From a virus, in IMG/VR virus record IMGVR_UViG_3300033145_002283, positions 1 through 63,039 of that record: DNA of 63,039 nt. One strand, given 5' to 3'. Below are positions 10,017 to 37,316 of the stretch, piece by piece. How positions within the stretch are numbered: the stretch's first letter is position 1; each line of letters starts with the position of its first letter. Both the position numbers and the translations under genes were made by a program. The notes beneath the pieces were generated by a model. The model was given only the letters and a program-made list of their open reading frames with translations, did not search any database and was not told where the DNA came from.

Positions 10017-10038
10017 TGAACCCTCATCTATAATCGGA

Positions 10039-11100
10039 TTATTTACACAGGGCGATTGCATATGAAAAAATATCAGATTTAATATTCAACATGCTTTCGT
10101 TCACCGTGATGTCATGGATCTCGCCTAAAACCCTTTTCAAGGTGATGGGATTGATCATGAATGAGAATTCCTTCTCGTTTTTTGATGTCGTGACGGTTTC
10201 AGATATCCACCCCTTGATATTTTTAGCATTAAACTCCATAGTGTTTTCCGTGATATTGATTGTAATAACCGGCGTGGAATTATCCTCATTGAAAGCCATA
10301 ACTTCCTGGCGTTCAAGAACGTCCTTGAGATTTTCAGGCAGTTCGATTGGTTCCCCTTCTGCCTCAAATAATCCCAGGACTTTATCTGTTGGGTAATCGT
10401 CCTCAGCAGATAATATTGACATAATTGCTCCATCTTCTGATTTGTAATGGTCAAGACGGCCAGAGCCTTTCTGATAAGCAACGGGATTAAATGATGATAA
10501 TATTTTGGCTGAATCAGAGGGGATCAGCCCAGATACAGGGCAATCAGTCAATTGGTATTTTGAGGCCTGATAATTATTGCAGCTTATAACCAGCCCATCA
10601 ATTATTTGGACACTTCCCAGGGCGCTTGTGTATGACCCTGTTTCTGTGGTAGGGTAGCAAAACAGCAATGCATCTGAAAAATTGGGCGGTAATTCGTCCC
10701 AATTCTCCCCAGCATCCAATTTGGGTGGGTCAACAATTTTGATATAAAACCCGGCACGGACATTCCCGGATTTGAAAATGAACTGGTTTTGATTTTCGTC
10801 AAGACTGATTTCGATTTCTTTTTCCGGGGCCTTTCTCACAAATTTGAGGAACTCATTAGCATATATACTGCCCTCAAGGCCGGTATCAAGTGGATACGAT
10901 ATGGAAATATTGTCGTTGAAGGAAAAGATCCGGTCTTTCGCGAATATCACAAGCTCGGATTGTTCCGAAAGGTCGTTGCAACCGGCAATCCCGGGTTTAA
11001 TTGTTTCCAGTGCCTTAATAATGTCCTTTTTTTCAAGAGCTCTTGACAGTGTTTCTCCTGCTTTTTTATTGGTTTTTTTGACAGTTCTTTTTCTGCTCAT
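10039..11100 (-). CDS. DNA polymerase sliding clamp (beta-clamp-like)
   Basis: The start at 11100 (MSRKRTVKKTNKK) follows AAGGAGATAACA. After a basic tail, residues of the form ALETIKPGIAG, LVIFAKDRIFSFND, ANEFLKFVRKAP and IEISLDENQNQFIFKSG follow the repeated strand-helix-strand pattern of DnaN-type clamps. The 353-residue length fits three clamp domains. It lies directly upstream of the polymerase gene, and the phage also encodes a loader at 3269-4192. Sequence identity to bacterial DnaN appears low, so the call rests on pattern and context. Confidence 0.78.
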   Translation of the reverse strand: MSRKRTVKKTNKKAGETLSRALEKKDIIKALETIKPGIAGCNDLSEQSELVIFAKDRIFSFNDNISISYPLDTGLEGSIYANEFLKFVRKAPEKEIEISLDENQNQFIFKSGNVRAGFYIKIVDPPKLDAGENWDELPPNFSDALLFCYPTTETGSYTSALGSVQIIDGLVISCNNYQASKYQLTDCPVSGLIPSDSAKILSSFNPVAYQKGSGRLDHYKSEDGAIMSILSAEDDYPTDKVLGLFEAEGEPIELPENLKDVLERQEVMAFNEDNSTPVITINITENTMEFNAKNIKGWISETVTTSKNEKEFSFMINPITLKRVLGEIHDITVNESMLNIKSDIFSYAIALCK

Positions 11101-11148: not shown

Positions 11149-12063
11149 TTATCCGACCTTTGCCAGAACTGAGCACCGTTTTTTTATGCCTTCCGCCATC
11201 TCTTTTATTTTCCCCGTATCCCCTTTGAAAAAAAATAAAACATCCTGATAATTATTCATAAGTTTTAATTTTTTTGGAAAAAAATACGCCGCGCGCATAC
11301 CGGAATTGCCGGTAATCGTGATCAATACAGCCTTATTATAAAGAATCAGCCCATATTTCTTGAACATTTTTTCGACATACCCTGACATATTGATTAATTC
11401 GTCGTTCACGCGATAGTTCCCCACAACAATTCCTGCAAAACGATTATCCTTTAATTTATCGCATGATTTTTTGATTATTTCGCCCAAGGCAGATATGAAT
11501 TTAGATTCCGACATATTTGAAAGGTCGTTTGGGGAGTCAGAATATTTTTCCAAATTGCTGTATGGCGGGCAGGTAAAAATAAAATCAGCCTTCGGAGCGT
11601 TTTGAATCTCAGTCAATGAATCCCCAACCACCCAAGATGGTTGGTTATCCGGAATGATTTTGTTTGCCTGCACATTGTTTGCTGTGACCTGTTCCTCCCG
11701 CAGGTCACAGCCCCAGTATTTATACCCAAGGACATGGGCGACAATCCCCCGCACCGATCCGCCAGCGAACGGGTCAAGAATTTGCCCGCCAGCAGGGCAA
11801 AACCATTTATAGGCGATCTCACACAGTACGGGATCAAACACGGAAGATGACCGTTCATATTGTTCATGGTTACCGTTACCGGGCTTCAGGATTATCCCCC
11901 TCTTATCCCCTTTCCAACTCTTAATGCCAAGAGAAAACCATTTTCTTTTCCTTCTTATCCAATAACCTTGCCGGGCATTGAAAACGTTGAATGGAGGGGC
12001 GATGAATCGGTCTGATAATAACCTGCTATACGATTTTTTTACGGATATGCCGAATCCTGTCAT
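11149..12063 (-). CDS. DNA methyltransferase, amino type, FxG-first order
   Basis: The 304-residue protein has the AdoMet motif DPFAGGSVRG at 97-106 and the catalytic TCPPYSN at 164-170. FxGG before PPY is the opposite order to the methyltransferase at 4430-5383. PPY is compatible with N6-adenine or N4-cytosine methylation. The phage thus carries two unrelated modification enzymes and no cognate nuclease, consistent with self-protection against host restriction. Confidence 0.85.
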   Translation of the reverse strand: MTGFGISVKKSYSRLLSDRFIAPPFNVFNARQGYWIRRKRKWFSLGIKSWKGDKRGIILKPGNGNHEQYERSSSVFDPVLCEIAYKWFCPAGGQILDPFAGGSVRGIVAHVLGYKYWGCDLREEQVTANNVQANKIIPDNQPSWVVGDSLTEIQNAPKADFIFTCPPYSNLEKYSDSPNDLSNMSESKFISALGEIIKKSCDKLKDNRFAGIVVGNYRVNDELINMSGYVEKMFKKYGLILYNKAVLITITGNSGMRAAYFFPKKLKLMNNYQDVLFFFKGDTGKIKEMAEGIKKRCSVLAKVG

Positions 12064-19461: not shown

Positions 19462-19733
19462 TTGTCCTCCTCGTTGTAATTGATAATTTCAGTCAACCGC
19501 CGAATGAGGTGTTTTTTGTTTTTGTAAGCATAGCACGGACAAGTGGTTACTATGTCGATTTTGGGGAATAGTTCTTTGCAGATTTCACAACCGTATCTGG
19601 GTTTATCATCTTGTGAAATAGCAAAGTGAGACCATTCCGGGCACCTCACCGTACTATTATTGTTTTCAATTTCGTTACGGATAATTCTCAGGTATTCGAC
19701 CCCATCTTCATTCAATTTTATGAATTTTCTCAT
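19458..19733 (-). CDS. Small Cys-rich phage protein
   Basis: The 91-residue protein has Cys pairs suited to zinc binding (CPEWSHF, CEIC, CPC). Its C-terminus HLIRRLTEIINYNEEDK is shared with the broken frame at 1039-1182. It starts inside the helicase stop (ATGA). The function is unknown. Its intact state shows what the paralogue lost. Confidence 0.65.
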   Translation of the reverse strand: MRKFIKLNEDGVEYLRIIRNEIENNNSTVRCPEWSHFAISQDDKPRYGCEICKELFPKIDIVTTCPCYAYKNKKHLIRRLTEIINYNEEDK

Positions 19734-21760
19734 TTTTTATCCTCCAGTTTTTTAATCAATTCGGTTAATAATGATCCTCCTGAAACCTCTTCCCCATCTA
19801 ATATCTGATTGAGAACCTCCATTTTTTTGTCAAGCAAGCCAGCAATATCTTCTTCAATGGTGTTTTGGGCGATCAGATAATAGGCGAAAACAGAATCTGC
19901 TTCCTGCCCAATCCTATGAACTCGGTCTTCAGCCTGGCTATGTTCTGCTGGTTTCCAGGCAAGCTCAATGGTTGCTGTGGCGTTCGCTGCTGTCAGGGTC
20001 AACCCTGTCCCGGCAGCCTTTACATTACCAATTAACAATTTGATTTTGGGATCTTCTTGAAAAGCCTCGACATTTTTATTCCGTTTTTTCAACGATGTTT
20101 TGCCGTATATTGAAACGGCCTTTTCCCCGAAATGTTCCATCAATATTTCAATGATTTTGGTATGAACGCAGAAGACGACCAGCTTATTATTGTTTTCAAG
20201 GTAACCCTCAATCCATTCAATACAGGCGTTGATTTTCCCTTTGATAGCCAGCTGTTTCAATTTTTCAATTGCGACCAGATGTTCAGCTTCGCTTGCCTTG
20301 TCAGCCGCCTTGTCTCCGCTGGTTTCCCTGATGTATGATATGATATCGCTGGCGGCATCATCGTATTCCCGCCGGTTATTTATTTCGAGGGAAATGACCA
20401 TGCGGTTTTTGGGCGGCAGCTCCGGCAATACATTTTTTTTCAGCCGCCTGATCATGACCGTTTTTGCTAATTTGTCGTGCAATTCCTTTGTGTTGGTCGC
20501 TCCGGTAAAATCCCATCCAAACCCGTTGTGGGTGGCCCCGCAGTATTTCTGTGCATAATTCCAGTATGACGGGAAAATGGTCGGGTTGATAATTTTGATT
20601 GGTGTATAAAATTCAATCGGCCGGTTTTCAATGGGCGTTCCTGATAAACCTACAATATATGGGATCTTCTTTGCCAGCCTATTGCAGGCTTTGCCTCTAT
20701 GGGTCTTCAGATTTTTCAGGTACTGGATTTCATCAAAACAAATGAATTCCGGCTTGATTTTTGCAAGATGGTCACCCCAACCGGTATTTTTTTGCTCAAC
20801 TGATTTTGTCTTGCCGGTATATTCGTCTTTGACTTTTTTGTATTTGTTGCTGACAACGTCATAATTGATAACAATGATTCCGTCATCTGGTATTGCCTTG
20901 TTTTTTGACCATCTGCCGGATAATGTATGTACCGTTTCCCCGGGCAGCCACTTATTGATTTCTTTTTTCCAATTCGCTTTCAGCGAGGCGGGACAGACAA
21001 TGATTGCCGGCCGAGCTTCCGGATGAAGATGCAGCCAGCACAGGGCCTGAATAGTTTTTCCGAGGCCCATCTCATCTCCTATCAATGCCCGACCATGTCT
21101 GGATTCGATATATTCCACCCCTTCCATCTGATATGGCCGGGGTTTCAGCCCAGCAGGCAGCCCGGGTATTTTTTTCAGATCAATATCTTTGTACTGGTTT
21201 TTCTTTTCCCAGTCCAGAATATCTTGGGACAGTTCAAACCCCCATTCCCTCAATTTTTCAATATTTTCAAGGGATATTGGGGCTGACCATTTTTTTGTTT
21301 CACTATTGAACCGCCGTTCTTCAAGAGATTTTACCTTTCCAAGATATTCCTGAAACCGGGTATCGCCTATTGGGAAGGAAAATTTGATAATCATGTTCAG
21401 ACCCTTGAGGGTTGCCTCCAGAACAGGCGGCCTGAATTTTTTTTCTTCTTTAACGATATCATCAGCCGTTTCAATCCCGATTTTTTCAACCCCGGATCTC
21501 ACAGCCTGTCCGGCATACTTCATCATATTCCGCCGGACATACACCATCTGCTTTTCCGAAAGTTTCCCCCATTTCAGAAAATTCTTTGCCAGGGAAGTCA
21601 TGAAGTTTGCATCAGAAGAATTAAATCCAATACCGTTTTCATAAACGGTATTCTCAATTATCTGTTCATCATCTTCCTGATTGTAATAAACCGTTATCAG
21701 GGCCTTGATGGCCCATCTGTCGTCTGTCTCAATTAATTTTTTTAATTCATCCGAAGTCAT
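19730..21760 (-). CDS. SNF2/SMARCAL1-like DNA helicase
   Basis: The 676-residue protein has a HARP-like segment at about 120-180 (RRFNSETKKWSAPISLENIE) before the SF2 core. The core has GDEMGLGKT at 228-236, Walker B FDEIQ, LSGTPIENRP, VVFCVHTK, and the C-lobe motif EDRVHRIGQ. HARP-SNF2 proteins anneal or remodel forked DNA, so a role at phage replication forks is likely. It is the second SNF2-type enzyme in this genome and clearly distinct from the one at 5387-6763. Confidence 0.9.
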   Translation of the reverse strand: MTSDELKKLIETDDRWAIKALITVYYNQEDDEQIIENTVYENGIGFNSSDANFMTSLAKNFLKWGKLSEKQMVYVRRNMMKYAGQAVRSGVEKIGIETADDIVKEEKKFRPPVLEATLKGLNMIIKFSFPIGDTRFQEYLGKVKSLEERRFNSETKKWSAPISLENIEKLREWGFELSQDILDWEKKNQYKDIDLKKIPGLPAGLKPRPYQMEGVEYIESRHGRALIGDEMGLGKTIQALCWLHLHPEARPAIIVCPASLKANWKKEINKWLPGETVHTLSGRWSKNKAIPDDGIIVINYDVVSNKYKKVKDEYTGKTKSVEQKNTGWGDHLAKIKPEFICFDEIQYLKNLKTHRGKACNRLAKKIPYIVGLSGTPIENRPIEFYTPIKIINPTIFPSYWNYAQKYCGATHNGFGWDFTGATNTKELHDKLAKTVMIRRLKKNVLPELPPKNRMVISLEINNRREYDDAASDIISYIRETSGDKAADKASEAEHLVAIEKLKQLAIKGKINACIEWIEGYLENNNKLVVFCVHTKIIEILMEHFGEKAVSIYGKTSLKKRNKNVEAFQEDPKIKLLIGNVKAAGTGLTLTAANATATIELAWKPAEHSQAEDRVHRIGQEADSVFAYYLIAQNTIEEDIAGLLDKKMEVLNQILDGEEVSGGSLLTELIKKLEDKK

Positions 21761-25282: not shown

Positions 25283-25996
25283 ATGGCAAATAAAAAACGG
25301 CAACGAACAAAAAATATCCCCAATAAGAAACCTAAGCATACATCCAAGTACCGTACATCAAAAATCCCATATAGAATACGGCATACAGAACCACTGCCGG
25401 ACATAGACCTAAACAATATAGATCAATATGATAAAGAACAGCTCAAACAGGTAATACTGTTGAACAGGGATAAGAACGGTAAACCAACAAAGTGGGGCCG
25501 CCCTACTGATTACAAACCTGAATATGATTATATGGCATATACCCTAATCAAGACCCATGGTATTACTATTGATGAACTGGCTGATGCATTTGGAACAACC
25601 TCTGCCGGGATCAAGAGATGGCGGGATACATACCCAAATTTTAATAATGCCATCATAAAAGGCCGGGACGAATTTGACAATGAACGGGTGAAGAAAACAC
25701 TGCGGGCCAGGGCACTGGGATACGAGTATGAGGAAAAGACGGTCAAGTATAAACGGTTCCCTGTGAAAGATAAAGATGACAAGGTCATCAGATGGGAAAT
25801 GAGACCTGTTGAAAGAACGGTTTACAAGAAAGCAATGCCCCCTGATGTTGGGGCTATTGCATGGTGGCAGAAAAATAGGGACTCGGCCCGCTGGAAAGAC
25901 CGCAAAGCAGTTGAGATTTCCGGGCCTGATGGCCAGCCCATGGAGCATAATGTCCATGTTTATATCCCGGAAAATGGTAGGGAAAAGGATAAATGA
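25283..25996 (+). CDS. Terminase small subunit
   Basis: The 237-residue protein has a very basic N-terminal tail, then an HTH (ITIDELADAFGTTSAGIKRW) like TerS DNA-binding domains, and a helical oligomerisation and C-terminal region. It ends four bases into the large-terminase gene. It would recognise the packaging site and stimulate the large subunit. The site itself cannot be located by eye. Confidence 0.82.
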   Translation: MANKKRQRTKNIPNKKPKHTSKYRTSKIPYRIRHTEPLPDIDLNNIDQYDKEQLKQVILLNRDKNGKPTKWGRPTDYKPEYDYMAYTLIKTHGITIDELADAFGTTSAGIKRWRDTYPNFNNAIIKGRDEFDNERVKKTLRARALGYEYEEKTVKYKRFPVKDKDDKVIRWEMRPVERTVYKKAMPPDVGAIAWWQKNRDSARWKDRKAVEISGPDGQPMEHNVHVYIPENGREKDK

Positions 25997-27375
25997 CAGG
26001 TACAGGAACCATAATCCGGCCACAATCAGGGCCGCAGACGGCTTTTTTGGAAACACCTGCTGATATTGCTTTTTATGGTGGTGCAGCAGGTGGCGGAAAG
26101 ACCTTCGCCCTGTTGATGGAACCATTACGGCATATTCAGAACCCGAAATTTTCTGCTGTCATCTTCCGGCGGGAATCAACACAGGTTACTAATGAGGGTG
26201 GATTGTGGGATACGGCGTCTGAGATATATCCGGGTATCGGAGGCGCCCCAAATGAGAATAAATTGAAGTTCACATTTCCTAAGGGTTCCAGGGTCAGATT
26301 TGCACATTTACAACATGAGAAAAGCAAACATAACTGGCAAGGGGCGCAGGTTCCGTTTTTTGGGTTTGATGAGCTCACCCATTTTACATGGACGCAATTT
26401 ACATATATGTTGTCCAGAAATAGATCAACCTGCGGGGTCGTCCCATATATACGTGCAGGGTGCAATCCTGATCCTGATAGCTGGGTGAGGGATTTCATTG
26501 ACTGGTGGATTGGTGATGATGGTTTTGCTATTGATGAGCGGTCAGGGGTTATCAGATGGTTTATTGTATTGGGCAACGAGGTTATTTGGGCAAACAGTAA
26601 AGGATACCTGATCAAAAAATATGGTAAAGATATTGATGGCGAAGATGAAGCCATACAACCTAAATCGTTCACATTTATCAAATCCAATGTATATGACAAT
26701 AAAATTCTTCTCAAACAGAATCCTGAATACCTGGCAAACCTGATGGCCATGCCCCGGGTTGATCGGGAACGGCTGCTGGGTGGTAATTGGGATATCAGAC
26801 CGGTATCAGGGTTGTTTTTCCAGCGTGCATGGATTGAGATTGTTGATGAGTTACCGCCCAGGGATGAATTGGAAACAATACGGTACTGGGACAGGGCGGC
26901 AACGGAAAAAACTCCTGATAATGATCCATCATGGACGGCGGGAGTAAAACAATCGTATCATGAAACATCCGGGATCACGTTTATTGAACATGTTGAGAAA
27001 TTTCAGGGCACCCCTGCAACGGTCAGGAACAATGTTAAAAACCTGGCTATACAGGATACCGTTAATTGCATTGTAGGGATAGAACAGGACCCCGGCCAGG
27101 CCGGGAAGGCGGAGGCCGAGTCATATTTGGACCTGTTACCCCAGTTCAATGTCAAGATCAATGTTGTCAGAGAGTCCAAGGCCAACCGGGCGAAGCCAGT
27201 ATCCGCCCAGGCTGAACATGGGAGGTTGAAATTGCTGAGAGGCCCGTGGAATAAGGCGTTCCTGGACAAACTGGAATCATTCGATGGTACTGATAAAGGG
27301 CATATGGATGAGGTAGATGCAATGTCCGGTGGATATTATGTGTTGCACAACAAATCAAGGGTGGGGGTATGGTGA
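25993..27375 (+). CDS. Terminase large subunit
   Basis: The 460-residue packaging motor has Walker A YGGAAGGGKT (28-37) and Walker B FFGFDELTHF (D126/E127). A C-terminal RNase H-like nuclease begins near IRYWDRAATEK, followed by GIEQDPGQAGK and a late acidic DAMSGG region. It cuts concatemers and pumps DNA into proheads. The length is normal, and a circularly permuted genome would fit headful packaging. Confidence 0.93.
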   Translation: MTGTGTIIRPQSGPQTAFLETPADIAFYGGAAGGGKTFALLMEPLRHIQNPKFSAVIFRRESTQVTNEGGLWDTASEIYPGIGGAPNENKLKFTFPKGSRVRFAHLQHEKSKHNWQGAQVPFFGFDELTHFTWTQFTYMLSRNRSTCGVVPYIRAGCNPDPDSWVRDFIDWWIGDDGFAIDERSGVIRWFIVLGNEVIWANSKGYLIKKYGKDIDGEDEAIQPKSFTFIKSNVYDNKILLKQNPEYLANLMAMPRVDRERLLGGNWDIRPVSGLFFQRAWIEIVDELPPRDELETIRYWDRAATEKTPDNDPSWTAGVKQSYHETSGITFIEHVEKFQGTPATVRNNVKNLAIQDTVNCIVGIEQDPGQAGKAEAESYLDLLPQFNVKINVVRESKANRAKPVSAQAEHGRLKLLRGPWNKAFLDKLESFDGTDKGHMDEVDAMSGGYYVLHNKSRVGVW

Positions 27376-27638: not shown

Positions 27639-27812
27639 TAAAATCAATAGGTTATAAAACATGATTTCAACGAAATACATGAATATTGATAACTACTTGA
27701 TTTTATTACAAAAACATGTCCTTAAATTTAAACGATCTTTACATGGTGTATATAATTGTATTGATCAAAAATTATTGTTTAAATATGGGCGAATAAGAAG
27801 GTTGAAAAAATG
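27626..27812 (+). promoter_or_regulatory. Element A (187-bp repeat), copy 1, before portal
   Basis: It is nearly identical (about six differences) to copies at 37308-37493 and, inverted, 51528-51714. Every copy ends with the same AGAAGG ribosome site and the ATG of a gene. It contains AATAAAATCAA mirrored by TTGATTTTATT, ATTTAAACGAT facing an imperfect ATTGTTTAAAT, and TATAAT. It is likely a promoter plus leader for the portal gene. Confidence 0.75.
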
Positions 27813-29195
27813 ACGGAGATCAATGAAAACGTGTTGAATCAGCTGATAGCTGCAACATCAGCGATGGTTACCAGAGCAGAGCTTGCAGCCAAACTGGGCA
27901 AGTCGTTTGATGGTGATCGGGATTTGTATGAGGCCCTTGGGTACAAGGTGAGCCCGGACTTCAACGATTTTATGGCCCGGTATACCCGCCAGGATATTGC
28001 CAAGGCGGTGATTGATAAACCGGTTAACGCCTCCTGGCGGCTGAAGCCGGTTATCACGGAATCAGACGATGCAGAAAGCACCCCGTTTGAAAAAGCATGG
28101 AATGATCTGGTCAAAGACAGAAAGGTTTTTCACTATCTCCGTAGGGTTGACCGATTGTCCAGAATAGGCCAGTACGGTGTTTTGATGATGGGGTTCGATG
28201 ACGTTGAGGACACCAGTGATTTCAAGCTGCCAGTTGAGGGTGAACGAAGATTGTTATACCTGCGGCCATATACGCAAGGTAATGCAGTGGTCGAAAGCCG
28301 GGTGATTGATAAATCAGATGAACGGTATGGTCTCCCGGAAACGTATAAAATCACAACTAAAAATCTGGGAACATTATCTGGTTCTGGCACCTCAAATATA
28401 ATCGTCCATCATACCAGGGTATTGCATATTGCCGAGGACCTGGTCGAAGACGATGAGAGCGCCGAACCGGCGTTAAAGGTCATTCTCAACAGACTGCATG
28501 ATCTGGAGCTATTGTCGGGCGGCAGTGCTGAAATGTTCTGGCGTGGTGCTTTTCCGGGCATGGCTTTCATGATGGACAAAGATGCAAACCCGGCCGCTCA
28601 GACATTGGCCGATATAAAAGACAATATTGAAGATTATGTTCATAAACTCCAGAGGTCATTGAGGTTGCAAGGTATTGATGTTAAGCAATTGGCCCCTGCT
28701 GTAGCAGACCCGTCCAACCATATTGATGTACAATTAACATTGATATCAGCGGCGACCGGGATCCCCAAACGGATATTGCTGGGATCAGAACGTGGGGAAT
28801 TGGCATCCAGCCAGGATGAACGTAATTGGAACATGCGGGTTGATGAACGTAGATCTGATTATGTTGAGCCCATGATTTTACGGCCGTTCATAGACCGAAT
28901 GATTGAATACGGGGTATTGCCGGAGCCCGCTGACGGATATGATGTTGAATGGCCTGAACTGTCCAGCCCGACTGAAAAAGAGAAAGCCGAGGTTTCCAAA
29001 CAGAAAACCGATACATTGGTTGCATACAGTAATAGTGCAAATGCCCAGCTGATTATCCCCCAGGATGTATACCTGAGAAAAATTATGGGTTTTGACCAGG
29101 AAGAAATGGCAGCCATTGAGGAAATTCAGGGCGAAATAGAGAAACAGTTAACAACCGAACCGGGCATGACCCCGGGCCAGGGGGCTGAGGAATAA
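27810..29195 (+). CDS. Portal protein (PF06381/DUF1073 type)
   Basis: The 461-residue protein reads GYKVSPDFNDFMARYTRQDI, AVIDKPVNASWRLKP and IGQYGVLMMGFDD, then LYLRPY, ISAATGIPKRILLGSERGEL and SSQDERNWN. This is the pattern of the DUF1073 portal family. The dodecameric portal forms the DNA channel. Its position between terminase and the MuF protein is standard. The stop overlaps the next start (TAATG). Confidence 0.88.
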   Translation: MTEINENVLNQLIAATSAMVTRAELAAKLGKSFDGDRDLYEALGYKVSPDFNDFMARYTRQDIAKAVIDKPVNASWRLKPVITESDDAESTPFEKAWNDLVKDRKVFHYLRRVDRLSRIGQYGVLMMGFDDVEDTSDFKLPVEGERRLLYLRPYTQGNAVVESRVIDKSDERYGLPETYKITTKNLGTLSGSGTSNIIVHHTRVLHIAEDLVEDDESAEPALKVILNRLHDLELLSGGSAEMFWRGAFPGMAFMMDKDANPAAQTLADIKDNIEDYVHKLQRSLRLQGIDVKQLAPAVADPSNHIDVQLTLISAATGIPKRILLGSERGELASSQDERNWNMRVDERRSDYVEPMILRPFIDRMIEYGVLPEPADGYDVEWPELSSPTEKEKAEVSKQKTDTLVAYSNSANAQLIIPQDVYLRKIMGFDQEEMAAIEEIQGEIEKQLTTEPGMTPGQGAEE

Positions 29196-31054
29196 TGGCA
29201 AAGGGCGCACTCATAGCGGTTGCAAACATGACCATGCGGGATAAAGACCCCACCATGACCCTGACGTTACGGGCAAAATTTGTGGCTCAGATGAATAAAC
29301 GGTTCCGGGCGCTCAAAGGAGCAATAAACAAGTCTATTATTGATAACGATTGTTTCGCTATTAAGAAAACTGTTGCAAATGTTGCATTGACTCCGCTTGG
29401 GGCAAAGACGTTCCAGTACACTAAAGACCCGGAAAAGATTAAGGGGTTCATGACGTGGCTGAAGGGCGAAGAAGAAAAAGGCATATTGGAGATTTCCATG
29501 GTGCCGTCTATGATGGGGCCTACCGGCGTGCCCTGGACCAATGTTTATATCCAGTCCGCATATCAGAAAGGTATAGCGCAGGCCCGGATTGATATGAAAC
29601 AGGGTGGGGCACCAATTGATACGTATACCGATCAGACCCTTAACATGGCATTTTATCAGCCGTTCCATGCTGACAGGGTGGCGCTGATTTATACCCGGGC
29701 ATATAATGAGCTGAAAGGTGTAACCGAAGCCATGAACCAGCAGATCAGCCGGGAGCTGGCATTGGGGATGGCCCGGGGTGATGGCCCGTACAGAATAGCC
29801 CAACTGTTGAACGACCGTGTTGATAAAATAGGGATTGTACGTGCAAGGTTGATCGCTCGCACAGAAACAGTCCATGCCCTGAACGAAGCAGCCTTGAATG
29901 AATATGAGCTGTTGGAAAACATGGTTGGTGAAACGGTAAAGGTAAAGTGGTGGACGGCCCTTGATGAACGGGTTAGATCTCAACATGCAGCGTGGCATGG
30001 AAAAGTGATGACCCGAAAGGTCGGCCGGGCAAGAATAGGTGCTCCTAATTGCCGTTGCGCTCTGCGCCCGTGGCTGGATAGTTGGGACGAAGAAGAGCAG
30101 GAGCTTGCAGGTATTACAGGTCCAAAGCCAATGTCGTCCATTGGCCGTTTTGGTAAATGCCTTGTTTCCAGAATTGCTAATATTTTCAATCGTAAAACAG
30201 CAGTAAAACCGCAGGCATGTAGGGATTATGTGCGGGATAAAAAAGGTAATTGGTATCTGAATGGAGAAAAGGTTAAAGGGGATGCTTTTGACAGGCTTAA
30301 AAAAATGAGGATCCCGCCTGCATGGAAAAACGTTGTCGTGGCGGTTGATACTTCAATGGATATACAGGCCATTGGGCGGGACGCCGCAGGGCGATGGCAA
30401 TATCGGTATTCCGCCGAGCATGTTGCCAAAAAGGCAAGAGAGAAATTCGACCGCTTGAAATCCTTTACCCGGAATATGCCTTCAATGCGACGTAAAATAG
30501 CGGATGATATGGCGGCCGGGGACGATAGGGCAATGTTGTTGCATCTTGAGGACAAGACCGCTATCAGGGCAGGATCGAAAACAGATTTCAAGGCCAAGAA
30601 AAAAGCGTATGGGCTGACGACATTGAAAAGCAGGCATGTATCCGTATCTGGCGATAAGATAACTCTGGATTTCACAGCCAAGGAAGGAATAGCAGCTCAT
30701 TATGAACTTGAAGATGACGTTTTGGCTGAATGGCTGACTGAAAGAAAAGCGTCCGTGGGTATTGACGATGATTTGTTCCCGGATTTGAGCGCACAGAAAA
30801 TGAACAAATACATCAAAGAACTATCCAATGGTGAAAAGTTTACTCTTAAGGATTTCCGAACATACCATGGGACACGGATTGCATATGATGAGATAAAACA
30901 ATATGCCGGAATGGAATTGGACACCAAGAAGAAAAAAGAAATACTTCAGGAGGTGTCCAAAAAAGCAAGCGACTTCTTGCACAATACCCCAACCATGGCG
31001 AGGAACAGCTATATTGATCCGATGGTCTGGGAGTTTATAGGTGGAATAAGATGA
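29195..31054 (+). CDS. MuF head-morphogenesis protein fused to type IB DNA topoisomerase
   Basis: Residues about 155-295 of this 619-residue protein are a Mu gpF-type minor head domain (ARTETVHALNEAA, DERVRSQHAAWHG, APNCRCALRPW). Residues about 340-619 are a complete topoisomerase IB: IPPAWKNV, QAIGRDAAGRWQYRY, then catalytic R458 (IRAG), K496, R555 (KDFRTYHGT), N597 and Y606 (NTPTMARNSYIDP). N-to-Y spacing is nine residues, as in Deinococcus TopIB. MuF proteins sit near the portal and may be ejected with DNA, so the enzyme could relax DNA during packaging or on entry. The fusion is the most unusual gene here. Confidence 0.9.
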   Translation: MAKGALIAVANMTMRDKDPTMTLTLRAKFVAQMNKRFRALKGAINKSIIDNDCFAIKKTVANVALTPLGAKTFQYTKDPEKIKGFMTWLKGEEEKGILEISMVPSMMGPTGVPWTNVYIQSAYQKGIAQARIDMKQGGAPIDTYTDQTLNMAFYQPFHADRVALIYTRAYNELKGVTEAMNQQISRELALGMARGDGPYRIAQLLNDRVDKIGIVRARLIARTETVHALNEAALNEYELLENMVGETVKVKWWTALDERVRSQHAAWHGKVMTRKVGRARIGAPNCRCALRPWLDSWDEEEQELAGITGPKPMSSIGRFGKCLVSRIANIFNRKTAVKPQACRDYVRDKKGNWYLNGEKVKGDAFDRLKKMRIPPAWKNVVVAVDTSMDIQAIGRDAAGRWQYRYSAEHVAKKAREKFDRLKSFTRNMPSMRRKIADDMAAGDDRAMLLHLEDKTAIRAGSKTDFKAKKKAYGLTTLKSRHVSVSGDKITLDFTAKEGIAAHYELEDDVLAEWLTERKASVGIDDDLFPDLSAQKMNKYIKELSNGEKFTLKDFRTYHGTRIAYDEIKQYAGMELDTKKKKEILQEVSKKASDFLHNTPTMARNSYIDPMVWEFIGGIR

Positions 31055-31200: not shown

Positions 31201-32673
31201 ATGCGAGTTGTAAATCAAATACTGGCTAATTACCAGACGCAGGAAAGGACATTTGAGGGCCGGGAATACCTGGTGGCCCCAGTGGTGATGCTGAAAGAAG
31301 GAGTGCATAACGGCTCCGCCGGGCCGCTGTATTACCCGCCTGATGTCATCAAGAATTCGGCAGACAGGTGGGAGAACGTTCCAGTCACGATCCCGCACCC
31401 GGAAAATGATGGGGAATTGATTTCTGTATCTGACCCGGGCGGTGACCGTTTTATTGCCGGGCATGTTCGGAACGTCCAAACTCAGGATGATGAGCTGAAA
31501 GCTCAGGTATGGCTGGATATTGACCGTACTAACCAGATCAATCCTGCTGTTATCCCCGCAATTCGCAATCATAATCCGGTTGAGGTTTCCACAGGGCTGG
31601 GAGGGGCGTTTGAGCCGGAGCAGGGGACCTGGAACAATGAAACATATGATGCCATGGTGAAAGATATCGCCCCTGATCATCTGGCCCTGCTGCCGGGCGC
31701 CGTTGGCGCATGCAGCTGGGACGATGGTTGCGGTATCAGAAATGAAGAGAAAGGAGGGTTTGTGAAAAATATAAAAGACCGTATTCTGAATCAGTTTGGT
31801 GTGATACTTGAAAAGCTGGGGCTGACGGATATTGACAACAGTGCCAGTTTTGGGGATATTCAGACAGCGCTTCAGTTGTTGGTTGATGCTCTGGATAATG
31901 ACACGTATTACCATTATATCAACGATGTGTACGACGATTACTTTATTTACCGGGCAATGCCGAGGGAGAGGGAAGAGCGGGGGATTGGATCAAATGCCGT
32001 GTCTACCCTTTATAAACAAGGCTATTCCAAGATCGACGACAAGGTTGAGTTTGTAGGCGAGCCCGTGGAAGTTATAATGACCAAGGAATACAAACCAGTT
32101 GCAAATGACAATAGTGGACAAAAAATTAAAAACAAACAGGAGGACAAGAAAATGGCATGTTGCGAAGAAAGAGTTGAGGCATTGATCAAGAATGAGAAAA
32201 CCACCTTCACTGAGGATGATAAGGAATGGCTGAACAATCTTGATCAGGAACAGTACGAGCGGGTGGAGACAACGGCCCTGCGGTTTCATGAGGTTGATAA
32301 CAAAGTGGATGAGCCTGAAAAAAAGGAGACTGTTGACAATCAGGATCCGGCCACAGAGGACAAAAAACCCATTACTACGGAGGATTACATCAAACAGGCT
32401 CCGCCTGAAATTCAGAGCGTTCTGAATGAGAGCCTGGCTCTCCACAACCAGAAACGGCAGACCCTGATTGAAGGGCTGATGGCGAATGAAAGGAATAAAT
32501 TCACCAAGGAACAGCTTGAGGAGATGGACACCATCCAGCTGGAACAGATCGCGGCCCTGGCGGATATTCCCGTCAAGGCAAATTATGCGGCCAACTCCGG
32601 TGGCAAGGTTGATGGCAACGGGGCGGGTGAGCCGCTTGTACCGCCCAGGATAGAACCGGCGAAATCAAAATAA
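31201..32673 (+). CDS. DUF2213-type head maturation protease/scaffold
   Basis: The 490-residue protein starts after GGAGGGAAT. The N-terminal domain (LVAPVVMLKEGVHNGSAGPL, VPVTIPHPENDG, PVEVSTGLGG, DIAPDHLALLPG and ACSWDDGCG) matches DUF2213 prohead proteases. Candidate catalytic Ser is in VSTG and His in PDHLALL. The long C-terminal half is acidic and coiled, as expected for a scaffold fused to the protease. It lies immediately before decoration and capsid genes. Confidence 0.82.
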   Translation: MRVVNQILANYQTQERTFEGREYLVAPVVMLKEGVHNGSAGPLYYPPDVIKNSADRWENVPVTIPHPENDGELISVSDPGGDRFIAGHVRNVQTQDDELKAQVWLDIDRTNQINPAVIPAIRNHNPVEVSTGLGGAFEPEQGTWNNETYDAMVKDIAPDHLALLPGAVGACSWDDGCGIRNEEKGGFVKNIKDRILNQFGVILEKLGLTDIDNSASFGDIQTALQLLVDALDNDTYYHYINDVYDDYFIYRAMPREREERGIGSNAVSTLYKQGYSKIDDKVEFVGEPVEVIMTKEYKPVANDNSGQKIKNKQEDKKMACCEERVEALIKNEKTTFTEDDKEWLNNLDQEQYERVETTALRFHEVDNKVDEPEKKETVDNQDPATEDKKPITTEDYIKQAPPEIQSVLNESLALHNQKRQTLIEGLMANERNKFTKEQLEEMDTIQLEQIAALADIPVKANYAANSGGKVDGNGAGEPLVPPRIEPAKSK

Positions 32674-32793: not shown

Positions 32794-32828
32794 TGTAAAT
32801 TATAACAGGAGGAATGAAAAATGAGTGA
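32794..32828 (+). promoter_or_regulatory. Duplicated leader with strong ribosome site (decoration gene)
   Basis: These 35 bases, including AGGAGGA and the first codons ATGAGTGA, are identical to 33320-33354 before the capsid gene. Both high-copy head proteins therefore share one translation-start cassette. Confidence 0.75.
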
Positions 32829-33288
32829 GAATGCAAGAAATACGATTACAATCAAAGGAACCCCTGTGTTTGGGGAGGCTCTGGCTTCTGGCACAATCAA
32901 GCCTGGTTATCTGCTTGAACGTACCAGCGCTGCAACCGATACGGTACAGGCGCATGCCACTGCTGGTGGAAGGGCTCTGGCCATGTTTGCCTTGGAGGAT
33001 GATCTCCAGGGTAATGACATTGATGATAACTACAGCAGCGGGGACCTGACCCAGTTCGGCATTTTCAGGGCAGGTGATGAGGTGCTGGCGTGGATTGCGA
33101 ACGGTGAGGCGATTGCCAAAGCGGATGCGCTTGTATCCAATGGGGATGGGACTCTGAAAGAAGCCAGCCCGGATTCATCTGGAACTATTATTGAGGAGTT
33201 TGTACTGGCCTATGCCCGTGAGGCTTGTGATATGTCAAGCTCCAGCTCTGTTGATCCGTCCGGTCGTTGTATTGTGGAAATCATATAA
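32821..33288 (+). CDS. Head decoration protein
   Basis: The 155-residue protein (TITIKGTPVFGEALASGTIK, then GYLLERTSAA, ALAMFALEDDLQG and GDEVLAWIANGEAI) has the small beta-rich, gpD/DUF2190-like pattern of capsid-stabilising proteins. It has a very strong ribosome site and lies directly before the major capsid gene, the usual place for a decoration protein. Confidence 0.75.
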   Translation: MSENARNTITIKGTPVFGEALASGTIKPGYLLERTSAATDTVQAHATAGGRALAMFALEDDLQGNDIDDNYSSGDLTQFGIFRAGDEVLAWIANGEAIAKADALVSNGDGTLKEASPDSSGTIIEEFVLAYAREACDMSSSSSVDPSGRCIVEII

Positions 33289-33319: not shown

Positions 33320-33354
33320 TGTAAATTATAACAGGAGGAATGAAAAATGAGTGA
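33320..33354 (+). promoter_or_regulatory. Duplicated leader with strong ribosome site (capsid gene)
   Basis: Second exact copy of the 35-base leader seen at 32794-32828, again ending in ATGAGTGA. It supports the start at 33347 and suggests equal high-level translation of the two capsid-shell proteins. Confidence 0.75.
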
Positions 33355-34405
33355 AATGAATGTTGATTTTATTGCAAATGGTGAGGCGATTGGCAATACA
33401 GCACAGCGCCTGCTGGCGAACGGGATGGACCCCATGGCCCTGCGGCCCTATATCGGCAATGATGGCAAGCCGTACATGACCAAGATGATCGGCAACAAGG
33501 CCGTGGCTGTACCGGTTTCGAACGCTACCTTGCAGAAGGATGAATGGCTCCAGTTTGACGAGGCTGTTCTGAAAGCATATCAGAACCGGCTTGTTGGGGT
33601 GAAAGATCTTTATGATCGTAATCTGGTTTATCGGATTGGTAATGGGCTTGGCACCACTGTGCTTGAGTACCAGACCATGACTGATATCCAAGGGGCGCAG
33701 GTGAGCATGGACGCAGCTACCCGGGGAAGGAAAGACCGGCCTGAGTTCGACAGTGCGTATTTACCCCTGCCCATTGTTCATATGGATTTTTCTTTCAACA
33801 TACGTCAGCTGACGGCTTCCAGATCCAAGGGATCTCCGCTGGATACGACCATGGCTGAGCAGTGTGCTCGGAAATGTGCGGAAAAGGTTGAGGAACATCT
33901 TTTTAATGGGGCTGACGCGTATTCGTTTGGTGGTGGTACCATTCGTGGCTATCTCGATCATGCCAGCCGTAATACCGGATCGCTGAACCCGGCATGGACC
34001 GGCTCTGCTGCTACTGGCGCGACCATTGTTGATGACGTGAGGGCAATGAAACAGGCTGCCATCAATGACCGTGCTTTTGGGCCGTATGTTCTGTATGTAC
34101 CCACGGCATATGAGACCGTTCTGGATGATGATTATGTTTCCGGTTATCCTAAGACTATCCGCACCCGGATTCTTGAGATCTCCGGAATCGAGGATGTCAA
34201 GGTTTCTGATACCCTGACCGCTGCAAATGTGGTTCTGGTGCAGATGACCTCTGATGTTATCCGAATGGTTGAAGGGCTGGGAATCACGGTTGTTGAGTGG
34301 AGCACGGAAGGTGGCATGGTTCTGAATTACAAGGTCATGGTCATCCAGGTCCCGCAGGTACGGGCTGATTCCGAAGGCCGTTCCGGCATTCAGCATTGGT
34401 CTTAA
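33347..34405 (+). CDS. Major capsid protein
   Basis: The 352-residue protein has the helical N-arm, an extended loop (GVKDLYDRNLVYRIGNG) and a C-terminal domain (AAINDRAFGPYVLYVPTAYE, VLVQMTSDVIRMVEGLGITV) like HK97-fold capsid proteins close to the encapsulin-like/DUF6260 group. The strong start site, position after protease and decoration genes and size support the call. I see no long cleaved delta domain, so scaffolding probably comes from the protease protein. Confidence 0.82.
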   Translation: MSEMNVDFIANGEAIGNTAQRLLANGMDPMALRPYIGNDGKPYMTKMIGNKAVAVPVSNATLQKDEWLQFDEAVLKAYQNRLVGVKDLYDRNLVYRIGNGLGTTVLEYQTMTDIQGAQVSMDAATRGRKDRPEFDSAYLPLPIVHMDFSFNIRQLTASRSKGSPLDTTMAEQCARKCAEKVEEHLFNGADAYSFGGGTIRGYLDHASRNTGSLNPAWTGSAATGATIVDDVRAMKQAAINDRAFGPYVLYVPTAYETVLDDDYVSGYPKTIRTRILEISGIEDVKVSDTLTAANVVLVQMTSDVIRMVEGLGITVVEWSTEGGMVLNYKVMVIQVPQVRADSEGRSGIQHWS

Positions 34406-34455: not shown

Positions 34456-34812
34456 ATGAAGAGGTACAGACTCAAAGAAGGATGTGGGTCACATTATACA
34501 AGGGACGGCAGACGGCTGGAGGCCGGTGATTATATCGAGGTTAATGGGGATTGGGAGCTGGGCAGCGCCATTGATAAATTTGAAGAGGTTGTTTCCCGGC
34601 GCAGATCAAAGGCGCCCGAGCCGGTCAAAGCCAAGGTTGCAGAACCTGAACCAGATAAAGAACCTGAACCGGAAGACAAACAGGACGAAGCGGAACTCCA
34701 AATGGTTCATCATGGTGGTGGCCGTTACAATGTTGTCAATTCTGTGACGGATGAAATTATTAATGACGGCTGGTTGACCAAGGAAGAAGCAGAAGCATTG
34801 GTGAATGGATAA
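34456..34812 (+). CDS. Hypothetical 118-aa head-region protein
   Basis: It starts after AAAGGAGGAATT. A small N-terminal beta domain (MKRYRLKEGCGSHYTRDGRR, DYIEVNGDWELG) is followed by a Pro/Glu/Lys linker of repeats (EPEPDKEPEPEDK) and a short C-terminal domain (GGGRYNVVNSVTDEIINDGW). It could be a minor head or neck protein. No family assignment is possible. Confidence 0.6.
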   Translation: MKRYRLKEGCGSHYTRDGRRLEAGDYIEVNGDWELGSAIDKFEEVVSRRRSKAPEPVKAKVAEPEPDKEPEPEDKQDEAELQMVHHGGGRYNVVNSVTDEIINDGWLTKEEAEALVNG

Positions 34813-35444
34813 TGGGCTGGATCGCACCTAAAATATGGCCCGGCAGAACCGCCTATATTTTAGGCGGTGGGCCAAGCCTGAACGATGTTGATTTGAATCT
34901 GCTGAAAGGCAAAAAGATGATTGGTGTTAATAACTCCAGTTTTCTGTTGCCGGAAATCAATGTCTGCTATTTTGGAGATTATAAGTGGGTCATGCGGTAC
35001 CGGGAGCGGCTTGAGAGATTTGGAGGCCTGATTCTTACCAGCTGTTATGAGAAATGGTTTAAACGGGATTCATGGTTGGCTGGGCATGTTAAAAAATTAA
35101 CCCGGGGCAAGCCAAAGGGCATTGAAATCGAACCGGGGGTTATTGCGTGGAACAAATGCTCAGGGCTGTCGGCGATAAACCTTGCACACCATTTTGGATG
35201 TTCCAAGGTTGTGTTGCTCGGTTTTGATATGCGGGTTGTGGGAGGTAAGAAAAATTTCCATGATGAGTATATTGGTTGGGAGAATACCCCGCATGATATT
35301 TACGAAAAGTATCTGCAGTGCATCCCATATATTGCTCGGGATGCTGAGAAAATAGGGTTAGAAATTTACAATGCAACGCCTGACAGTGCAATAACTGAAT
35401 TTAAACAAATAACCATTGAGGAGACGGTGTCATGGCAAAATTGA
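34812..35444 (+). CDS. Glycosyltransferase-like Rossmann protein (GGGPSL motif)
   Basis: The 210-residue protein has AYILGGGPSLNDVDLNLL at 14-31 and VNNSSFLLPEINVCYFGD, the opening seen in DUF115/MAF and Cst-type sialyltransferase-like enzymes. Later SAINLAHHFGCSKVVLLGFD and KKNFHDEYIG follow. It likely transfers a sugar from a nucleotide donor or is a nucleotide-binding relative. It is the first of four surface-chemistry genes placed between capsid and connector genes. The exact reaction is unknown. Confidence 0.65.
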   Translation: MGWIAPKIWPGRTAYILGGGPSLNDVDLNLLKGKKMIGVNNSSFLLPEINVCYFGDYKWVMRYRERLERFGGLILTSCYEKWFKRDSWLAGHVKKLTRGKPKGIEIEPGVIAWNKCSGLSAINLAHHFGCSKVVLLGFDMRVVGGKKNFHDEYIGWENTPHDIYEKYLQCIPYIARDAEKIGLEIYNATPDSAITEFKQITIEETVSWQN

Positions 35445-36007
35445 AAGCAAATATGAAGGTTAATTTCAACCAGCAATACATTGATCCGTCAGTAAAAGTA
35501 ATGCCCGGGGCCAGAATCGGTATTGGGGTGTATATTGATGAAAATGTGATAATTGGGGAAGACGTTTTTATCGGTCATAATACGGTCATTAGATCCGGTG
35601 TGAGGATTGGTGACGGAACTGTGATCGGCCATCTATGCGTAATTGAACGGGACACAGTAATTGGAGAAAAGACAACAATACAGTCCAACTCTCATATTAC
35701 GGCCGAGGCCCGGATTGGGGATAAATGCTATTTCGGCCCGGGCGTGGTTATGATTAATGAAGGCCGGATTACCGCAATGCGGGATTCGATGCTACAGAAT
35801 CTTCAAGGCCCGGTGATTGGAAATGGTTGCCGGATTGGGGCGAGAGCATTAATCATGCCCGGGGTTAGGATCGGCCATAACGCCGAAATCGGCGCAGGGG
35901 CTATAATCACAACTGGTCGGGTAATTGGGGATAACGAAGTTTGGTATAATCCTGAAACCCAGGCTGCTTTTCAAGGCCATGTACCGGAGGAACAATGGAT
36001 AAAATGA
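35432..36007 (+). CDS. Left-handed beta-helix (hexapeptide) acyltransferase
   Basis: The 191-residue protein is almost entirely hexapeptide repeats ([IV]-G-x-x-[TV]-x: VIIGEDVFIGHNTVIRSGVR, IGDGTVIGHLCVIERDTVI), the left-handed beta-helix of acyl/acetyltransferases. His in CVIERD/SHITAEAR-type turns could be catalytic. It probably acetylates an amino-sugar. It overlaps the glycosyltransferase-like gene, so the two likely act on the same glycan. Confidence 0.85.
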   Translation: MAKLKANMKVNFNQQYIDPSVKVMPGARIGIGVYIDENVIIGEDVFIGHNTVIRSGVRIGDGTVIGHLCVIERDTVIGEKTTIQSNSHITAEARIGDKCYFGPGVVMINEGRITAMRDSMLQNLQGPVIGNGCRIGARALIMPGVRIGHNAEIGAGAIITTGRVIGDNEVWYNPETQAAFQGHVPEEQWIK

Positions 36008-36648
36008 TAAAATTCGTTGTCGTTCTTAATTCCGGCGGTGATTATACCTCTGATGACGTGATAACATTAGCCAGGCAGGTTGGGAGGAATTTGCATTGTC
36101 CTTATGTGTTCTTCTGCCTAACTGATGTCAGGATAAATCACGGAATGGTCATAGATATTCCGCTTGAGACTCCTGAATGGAAGCCTAAATGGTGGTCGGT
36201 TCAGGAAATGTTCAGGATTCAAGGGCCGGTGCTCGCCACTGGGCTGGATACGGTTATAGTAGGGGATATTACCCCCATGGCTGAAGAGGTTTTGAAACTG
36301 AATACAAATCAATTCCTGCTTATGCAGCCATTCAGAAAAACAGCTCCTTGGCCTTGGATCAATGGGTTCATGGGTTGGAATGGTGATTTTGGTTGGATTT
36401 ATGATGAGTTTAAAAAAGATCCTGAAAAATATATCAGCCAATTCCGTTCTGAAATGCTGTATACTCAGAACAGGTTGATGTCACATGGATATGAAATATT
36501 GGCATGGCAGGACAAGGTGAACGGGTTGTACAGTTATAAATGGCAGTGCAAACCAAAACCGCCTGAAGACATCAGAGTGGCAATATTTCATGGACAGCCA
36601 AGACCTGGGGACGTGAACGATAAATGGATAAAGGATGCCAGGCTATGA
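35995..36648 (+). CDS. Glycosyltransferase-like protein
   Basis: The 217-residue protein shows a GT-A-like pattern: FVVVLNSGGDYTSDDVITLA, CPYVFFCLTD, a central TGLDTVIVGDI in place of DxD, and FLLMQPFRKTAPWPWINGFM. A Met three codons in (MIKFVV) is an alternative start. Proteins of this type are common in marine and metagenomic phages and are annotated as putative glycosyltransferases. The metal-binding DxD is not clear, so activity is uncertain. Confidence 0.55.
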   Translation: MDKMIKFVVVLNSGGDYTSDDVITLARQVGRNLHCPYVFFCLTDVRINHGMVIDIPLETPEWKPKWWSVQEMFRIQGPVLATGLDTVIVGDITPMAEEVLKLNTNQFLLMQPFRKTAPWPWINGFMGWNGDFGWIYDEFKKDPEKYISQFRSEMLYTQNRLMSHGYEILAWQDKVNGLYSYKWQCKPKPPEDIRVAIFHGQPRPGDVNDKWIKDARL

Positions 36649-37316
36649 TCGAACCGATCCTTATAACGGGCTGTGCCCGGTCCGGGACATCAATGACGGC
36701 CGGGATAATTAATCAGGCAGGTGCCTGGGGCGGGGATATGTACCCGGCGCAGAAGGAGAATAAGAAAGGGATGTTTGAGAATATTACCTTTCGGGACCGG
36801 CTCGTAAAACCGTTTATCAAGTCAATTGGTGCCGACCCCATGGCGCAGAATCCTTTGCCTGATATTGACTCTTGTAAATTGGTGTCTGAACAGGCCGTTG
36901 ATAACTGGCGGCAGATTGTGCTTCATGAAATCAGGCATCAGGGTTACAAATCCGGCCCGTGGTTTTACAAAGATCCCAAGATGTGCATAATCTGGCCGGT
37001 TTGGGCGAGGGCCTTCCCGAACGCCAGATGGATTATTGTCCGGCGGGCAAGCGGGGATATTGTCAGGTCATGTCTGAAAACCAGATTTATGAGGGCTTAT
37101 GCTGATGAAATTGGATGGCTGAAATGGGTGGATCATCATAAAGAGTGCTTTTTGCAGATGTCCCATGCAGGCTTAAATATACAATATGCCTGGCCTCAGG
37201 AATGGATTGACCGGGATTATACCGGTATCAGAGCTATATTGATAAGACTGGGGCTTGAGTATGATAAGAATAAAATTGAATCGTTTATTGAACCGGCTCT
37301 TTGGTCGAATAAATAG
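36645..37316 (+). CDS. Sulfotransferase family protein
   Basis: The start at 36645 (MIEPILITGCARSGTSM) overlaps the previous stop (ATGA) and places the PAPS 5'-phosphosulfate loop GCARSGTS at 9-16. The 3'-phosphate motif is WIIVRRASGDIVRSC. The 223-residue length is typical of minimal sulfotransferases. With the preceding glycosyl- and acyltransferases it suggests building a sulfated glycan, either on the virion or on a host structure. Confidence 0.8.
   Translation: MIEPILITGCARSGTSMTAGIINQAGAWGGDMYPAQKENKKGMFENITFRDRLVKPFIKSIGADPMAQNPLPDIDSCKLVSEQAVDNWRQIVLHEIRHQGYKSGPWFYKDPKMCIIWPVWARAFPNARWIIVRRASGDIVRSCLKTRFMRAYADEIGWLKWVDHHKECFLQMSHAGLNIQYAWPQEWIDRDYTGIRAILIRLGLEYDKNKIESFIEPALWSNK

Follow-up and report, generated by a model that had tools for sequence, protein, structure and literature searches.

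Why would a phage attach a DNA-relaxing enzyme to a protein of its own head? This question is raised by IMG/VR virus record IMGVR_UViG_3300033145_002283, which comes from an uncultured virus of bacteria or archaea and of which positions 1 to 63,039 were analyzed (this whole stretch of 63,039 nucleotides is called the window below). An open reading frame (ORF) on its plus strand, at positions 29195 to 31054, encodes 619 residues with no internal stop, and the product is predicted from its sequence and a structure model to be a MuF head protein followed by a linker and a complete type IB topoisomerase (TopIB). Judging from their ORFs, comparable fusions, involving various head proteins, have arisen in dozens of other phages. 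We favor, with a probability of roughly 0.55, the reading that the enzyme is a virion-borne cargo, anchored at the portal and carried into the cell with the DNA to relax it early.

Domain organization of the MuF-TopIB protein

The N-terminal half was examined by profile searches. Phage_Mu_F (PF04233) matched residues 182 to 290 (E value of 2.2e-13; 51.3 bits against a cutoff of 29.6), and residues 10 to 292 matched PHROG 758, annotated as "head morphogenesis" (6e-42). The TIGR01641 score, 31.8 bits, was under the cutoff of that model, 39.65. The MuF/SPP1 gp7-type region was placed at residues 14 to 292 (29234 to 30070), with the Pfam core at residues 182 to 290. As is typical of MuF genes, the fusion gene is found directly 3' of the portal gene (27810 to 29195): its start shares 1 base with the portal stop, and a GAGGA ribosome-binding site lies at 29187 to 29191. 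Pfam, PHROG 758 and the gene order thus agree with the initial annotation of this DNA, which had described a MuF/gp7-type protein in its normal place after the portal gene. Among 50,697 phage records, the nearest match to the MuF half was from the haloarchaeal virus Hardycor1 (41% identity). An AlphaFold model, made with 18 related sequences as input, gave predicted local distance difference test (pLDDT) values of about 65 to 86 for the MuF core (residues 180 to 300, approximately). No match to a solved fold was seen for residues 1 to 180, where the model is poor, so that this result carries no weight.

The C-terminal half, residues 344 to 616 (30224 to 31042), was identified as a TopIB by Pfam, hidden Markov model, Foldseek and VIA-align comparisons. 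Top1B_N_bact (PF21338) matched residues 357 to 396 (5e-10) and Topoisom_I (PF01028) residues 412 to 602 (7e-25), corresponding to the N-terminal domain and the catalytic core in the expected order; all Pfam matches of the fusion protein, including that of Phage_Mu_F, exceeded the curated cutoffs. In a sequence search of the PDB, the TopIB of Deinococcus radiodurans (2f4q) was the best match (1.7e-34), followed by variola topoisomerase (2.1e-12). The model of this half was confident, with pLDDT values mostly from 80 to 97, and the fold match spanned residues 341 to 619. Foldseek placed 2f4q at the top (1e-15) and the variola enzyme in third position (4e-14), and VIA-align gave Z scores of 21.6 against bacterial TopIB and 18.9 against variola topoisomerase. 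With both programs, bacterial, human and pox TopIBs were the top structure matches, and tyrosine recombinases came well below. We therefore rejected an identity as a tyrosine recombinase: TopIB structures had Z scores of 18 to 22, compared with about 13 and lower, and the N-terminal domain of TopIB is present.

When the window enzyme was aligned with its relatives (see below), five residues fell in the catalytic R-K-R-(H/N)-Y columns of the family: Arg458 (30566 to 30568; R in 112 of 112 aligned sequences), Lys496 (30680 to 30682; K in 113 of 113), Arg555 (30857 to 30859; R in 111 of 111), Asn597 (30983 to 30985; N in 110 of 111 and H in the other, His being the residue of eukaryotic and pox enzymes) and the nucleophile Tyr606 (31010 to 31012; Y in 111 of 111). 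The initial annotation had read a complete TopIB with exactly these five residues. The profile and structure checks that it proposed bore it out: the MuF profile matched the N-terminal part, TopIB profiles matched residues 357 to 602, and the Deinococcus enzyme was the top structural neighbor. A single TopIB was found in the 63-kb record.

The two halves are connected by residues 300 to 343 (30092 to 30223), a linker predicted to be disordered (pLDDT of 34 to 37 over residues 301 to 340). It carries the motif PMSSIGRFGKC (residues 312 to 322; 30128 to 30160), which most of the related MuF-TopIB proteins in the window's clade have in recognizable form. In two relatives, MuF and TopIB are separate genes, the MuF stop codon (TAA in L003, at 2522 to 2527, and TAG in L005, at 2809 to 2814) being followed at once by an in-frame ATG of TopIB. 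Readthrough of the stop codon to give a fusion is possible there, judging from the arrangement, although plain reinitiation explains it. An internal start at Met313 of the window protein, which would yield free TopIB, was considered and is not favored. Met313 is conserved, but no well-spaced ribosome-binding site lies 5' of it, and a PMSSIGRFGKC-type motif stands at the C terminus of the MuF gene in both split relatives.

Recurrence of joins between TopIB and head proteins

IMG/VR was scanned with two kinds of query, the TopIB half itself and alignments of related sequences, and two scans of bacterial and archaeal genomes were added. The search was seeded from the MuF-TopIB family, so the counts describe the set that was reached rather than frequencies among all phages. 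It gave 113 distinct TopIB ORFs, two of which are pieces of one broken gene; 5 of the 113 came from genome contigs, bacterial chromosomal enzymes included. According to profile searches, 52 of the 113 were fused to a head protein: MuF in 25 cases, a portal in 24, portal plus MuF in 1 and a DUF2213 head protease in 2 (L058 and L067). For another 35, the flanking DNA retrieved contained a gene for a portal, MuF, terminase or DUF2213 protein, and no head gene was detected for the remaining 26 with the limited flanks and profiles available. The initial annotation had proposed a search for other MuF-TopIB fusions next to portal genes, and the MuF-fused ORFs show that the join recurs.

The portal partners span three portal families. 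Fusions of Phage_portal_3 to TopIB were confirmed by Pfam and PHROGs in L030, L031 and L027, and those of other families have portals of PHROG 113 (L099) or PHROG 21 (L107 and L055). In L016 (6631 to 9831), Phage_portal, MuF and TopIB form a single chain of 1,066 residues, and L017 and L018 are listed with the same arrangement. Some MuF-TopIB proteins contain long effector insertions (L002 and L024). MuF-TopIB relatives from other metagenomes were 36 to 49% identical to the window protein over the whole chain and 52 to 61% identical in the TopIB half. Because the join is found in other metagenomes, it is not an assembly error, and the stop or frameshift between the halves that would have spoken against the initial annotation is absent from the 619-residue ORF. 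The first scan of the bacterial and archaeal genome collection found zero relatives. The second found two phage-like loci, L036 with MuF-TopIB and L037 with TopIB and a portal gene about 3.3 kb upstream, together with three chromosomal TopIB loci (one from Lysobacter and two from Streptomyces) and one truncated locus. Each of 12 contigs tested held one TopIB.

Two side observations were made in this set. In L032 (840 to 3545), which encodes a MuF-TopIB, the MuF domain is apparently split by an intein-like insert (NC-FLPGTKI ... SNC), as seen by eye. PHROG 23460, of unknown function, matches the TopIB domain of the family at positions of about 285 to 546 and could be reannotated as TopIB.

Purifying selection and exchange of partners

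The R-K-R-N-Y set was complete in 110 of the 113 ORFs; the exceptions are two truncated ORFs and one that carries the eukaryotic-type His in place of Asn. Pairwise ratios of nonsynonymous to synonymous substitution rates (dN/dS) of TopIB were about 0.06 to 0.14. TopIB is under purifying selection, and the intact catalytic residues together with these ratios ruled out a degenerate enzyme.

In a quick maximum-likelihood tree, the phage enzymes stood apart from the bacterial ones. The MuF, portal and protease labels need at least 8 changes on this tree, a rough number since many inner branches are weak. Individual pairs gave clearer evidence. The portals of L064 and L065 are 44% identical and their TopIBs 90%; portal-fused L070 and L037, which has no portal part, have both the tag described below and TopIB in common; and so do L095 and L096, whose N termini are unrelated. 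As far as sequences can tell, TopIB has swapped its partner repeatedly.

A boundary tag shared with companion effectors

A sequence tag, F-x-E-S-E-H-P-R-D-E-D-G-K-F followed by glycines (short form EHPRDEDGKF), was found no more than 140 residues before TopIB in 37 of 104 proteins, or in 48 of 104 with a looser pattern. The tight motif occurred in 20 of 3,101 other ORFs, and its frequency among shuffled segments was 0.04%. Most of those 20 ORFs are neighboring genes, several with ADP-ribosyltransferase (ART) domains and one with DUF2213-Nudix. The consensus x-E-S-E-H-P-R-D-E-x-G-K-F plus a Gly-rich stretch stands at module boundaries of portal-effector and polyvalent proteins. When all IMG/VR contigs were searched blind with one DNA back-translation of the tag, 23 loci were obtained (L167-L189); TopIB follows the tag in 4 of them, and the rest resemble, on visual inspection, portals, ART-like and other polyvalent proteins. 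The other tag-bearing loci are L143, L130, L113, L037, L101, L125, L136, L099, L126 and L166. The last is the portal of the cultured Pseudomonas phage Orimi01 (PP179326), with the order portal-tag-ART; a Helicobacter prophage has the order portal-tag-LPD3.

The tag was not described in the open literature searched. It may be a head-targeting signal, a protease-processing signal or a recombination handle. The window fusion has no EHPRDEDGKF-type tag, and its clade has the PMSSIGRFxxC linker motif instead; that the two are related, both containing P-x4-G-[KR]-F, is only a guess. The shared tag offers a way to find further head-borne effectors.

TopIB also shares polypeptides with other domains, namely ART-PolyVal, InPase (pyrophosphatase), Acb1 (anti-CBASS), GNAT, metallopeptidase-like and 2H-like domains. 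InPase and TopIB occur in one chain in L119, L049, L057 and L103, with a portal domain preceding them in the first three. Since the companion domains are cell-directed effectors, delivery into the cell is favored.

Proposed role as a head-borne enzyme

By analogy with its family, the MuF half would attach TopIB to the portal ring within the procapsid, in the manner of SPP1 gp7, and one or a few copies would sit at the DNA gate on the flexible linker. SPP1 gp7 enters the procapsid via the portal in few copies and helps to start infection, and only about 25% of virions without gp7 are infectious (PMC6316719). The enzyme would most likely exit the head together with the genome or before it, and would relax DNA in the cell during the first minutes, before phage gene expression. 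Its likely substrate would be the incoming phage DNA, topologically held at the portal and membrane and twisted by the first transcription and replication; host DNA is a possible alternative target. Enzymes fused to MuF and portal proteins have generally been read as injected effectors (PMC5512222 and PMC9503650), and MuF proteins are known to carry toxins (PMC5576092). Because TopIB shares chains and a tag with effectors, and because MuF- and portal-fused enzymes are read in this way, a head-borne TopIB delivered with the genome is the best reading; many phages probably package TopIB in their virions and introduce it into the cell along with their DNA. The initial annotation had suggested an enzyme built into the head to act during packaging or just after ejection. 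The case for an enzyme built into the head has become much stronger, since portals and head proteases are fused to TopIB as well; action during packaging is the less probable role.

Several points weigh against delivery. Presence in the virion, activity, delivery and substrate are all predictions from the genes, and no close relative with the fusion was found among the 50,697 phage records. A portal remains part of the virion, so TopIB fused to it could reach the cell only after proteolysis. For an enzyme held at the portal, a role during packaging would be just as conceivable, and the sequence evidence does not separate the two readings.

The most serious competitor, though a doubtful one, is a swivel at the inner mouth of the portal: TopIB would nick and reseal DNA while it is pumped, inside the head and without being delivered, releasing twist from translocation or from supercoiled replication intermediates. 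TopIB is fused to the C terminus of portals as well as to MuF, and the portal C terminus is generally held to face the head interior. In all seven portal-TopIB contigs checked (7/7), the fused portal was the only Phage_portal_3 portal detected, so that every subunit of the ring would carry TopIB, which suits a swivel at the gate. TopIB also needs no cofactor, working without ATP or metal. However, many fusions hold ART, pyrophosphatase, Acb1 or protease-like domains, without a packaging role, in the same chain; TopIB is a separate gene in many relatives; and most tailed phages package without it. In a broader form of this idea, which is about as doubtful, active TopIB would be fixed at the portal of many tailed phages, as a ring or in a few copies, and would serve as a built-in swivel that manages DNA torsion at the gate during packaging, ejection or both; if true, the packaging vertex would have a component for which model phages show no counterpart.

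Somewhat less probable still is a host-directed effector, an injected TopIB that would relax or nick the host chromosome or defeat a topology-sensing defense, as one further member of the phage's set of injected proteins. The tag and the polypeptides shared with ART, Acb1 and metallopeptidase-like domains fit this idea, but TopIB is, to our knowledge, not a toxin. MuF proteins do carry toxins, and MuF polymorphic toxins have the N-terminal MuF domain, the position after the portal gene and the C-terminal enzyme in common with the window protein (PMC5576092). They differ from it in that its C terminus is TopIB rather than a toxin domain, in that the next gene encodes a DUF2213 head protease and not an immunity protein, and in that relatives of the window fusion insert effectors between MuF and TopIB. 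MuF toxins are also typical of temperate phages (PMC5576092), whereas no tyrosine integrase, the only integrase type sought, was found in the 63-kb record, which may be a fragment.

It is quite improbable that the TopIB fold has no relaxing role and merely clamps the DNA or holds the genome end inside the head: SPP1 gp7 is described as a portal-bound DNA-binding protein (reference list of PMC6316719), but 110 of 113 ORFs retain the nucleophile and the other four catalytic residues, and a simple clamp would not need them. An accidental fusion or assembly artifact can be dismissed almost entirely. Although the two halves are adjacent genes in two relatives, numerous independent metagenomes contain the fused form, with partners from several families, low dN/dS and intact frames.

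Comparison with known systems

The window protein resembles the polyvalent proteins, in which MuF or portal proteins are fused to 2H, PBECR, InPase, Nudix, ART or PRTase and which are proposed to be packaged and injected (PMC5512222 and PMC9503650). It has at least two domains, one of them a head protein, and is encoded in the virion module; some relatives have InPase or ART beside TopIB. It differs in that TopIB acts on DNA topology, and a topoisomerase is not named as a partner in the main text of PMC5512222, where the word appears only as a reference title, or in the available part of PMC9503650; the word does not occur in the MuF toxin paper (PMC5576092).

The Deinococcus (2f4q) and variola (2h7f) enzymes share the fold, the domain order and the five catalytic residues with the window TopIB, which is about 30% identical to bacterial enzymes and 21% identical to that of variola. 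These enzymes stand alone, untied to a portal or head protein. Vaccinia topoisomerase (H6R) appears in PMC11980589 as a protein required for morphogenesis. Phage-encoded TopIBs of the stand-alone type, top1E of Bacteroides phage BS162P1 and those of jumbo phages RHph_N46 and Motura, are distant (22 to 30% identity) and annotated as separate genes; in the part of the BS162P1 record available, top1E has only hypothetical proteins alongside.

Enzymes in phage heads have so far been mostly toxins, RNases, ARTs and polymerases. Fusions of enzymes to MuF and portal proteins are already known, and a topoisomerase among them was not found published: the main text of the open papers searched had no description of MuF-TopIB or portal-TopIB, in line with the initial annotation, which knew of none. 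The repeated joins to portal, MuF and head protease genes suggest that many phages gain enough from controlling DNA torsion at the gate, or just beyond it, to devote an enzyme to this task. Whether DNA twist matters in packaging and ejection is an old question, and a single Y-to-F substitution now allows a direct test of it.

Genomic surroundings

The fusion gene sits in a complete packaging and head cluster on the plus strand. The terminase small subunit (25283 to 25996; PHROG 309, 1.2e-27) is followed by the large subunit (25993 to 27375; Pfam and PHROG 979), which is 50% identical to TerL of Rhizobium phage RHph_TM3_3_3 and whose nearest matches are from Rhizobium phages and a Methanoculleus virus (49 to 50%). 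The portal protein matched Phage_portal_3 (3.6e-37) and PHROG 146 (3e-70). Downstream of the fusion are a DUF2213 protein, a probable head maturation protease or scaffold (31201 to 32673; DUF2213, 4e-6; PHROG 530, 2.6e-9), a head decoration protein (32821 to 33288; PHROG 766, 2.2e-11) and the major capsid protein (33347 to 34405; DUF6260, 1.4e-25; Linocin_M18, 1.5e-10; PHROG 771, virion structural protein, 3.9e-28). The record also encodes a tape measure protein and its own replisome (DnaE-uracil-DNA glycosylase, clamp, clamp loader, DnaB and a DnaG-like primase), as well as SNF2 helicases and methylases. The source is a tailed phage and is probably virulent.

Other features of the window were noted in passing. 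In the early region, the minus strand encodes two N6/N4 DNA methylases (4430 to 5383 and 11149 to 12063) and two SNF2-type helicases (5387 to 6763 and 19730 to 21760). The DNA polymerase III alpha subunit (6792 to 10061, minus strand) has a C-terminal uracil-DNA glycosylase domain. Between the capsid and tail genes, the interval from 34812 to 37316 on the plus strand encodes an MptE-like protein, a hexapeptide acyltransferase-like protein, an unassigned protein and a sulfotransferase, which perhaps modify a surface glycan or the virion.

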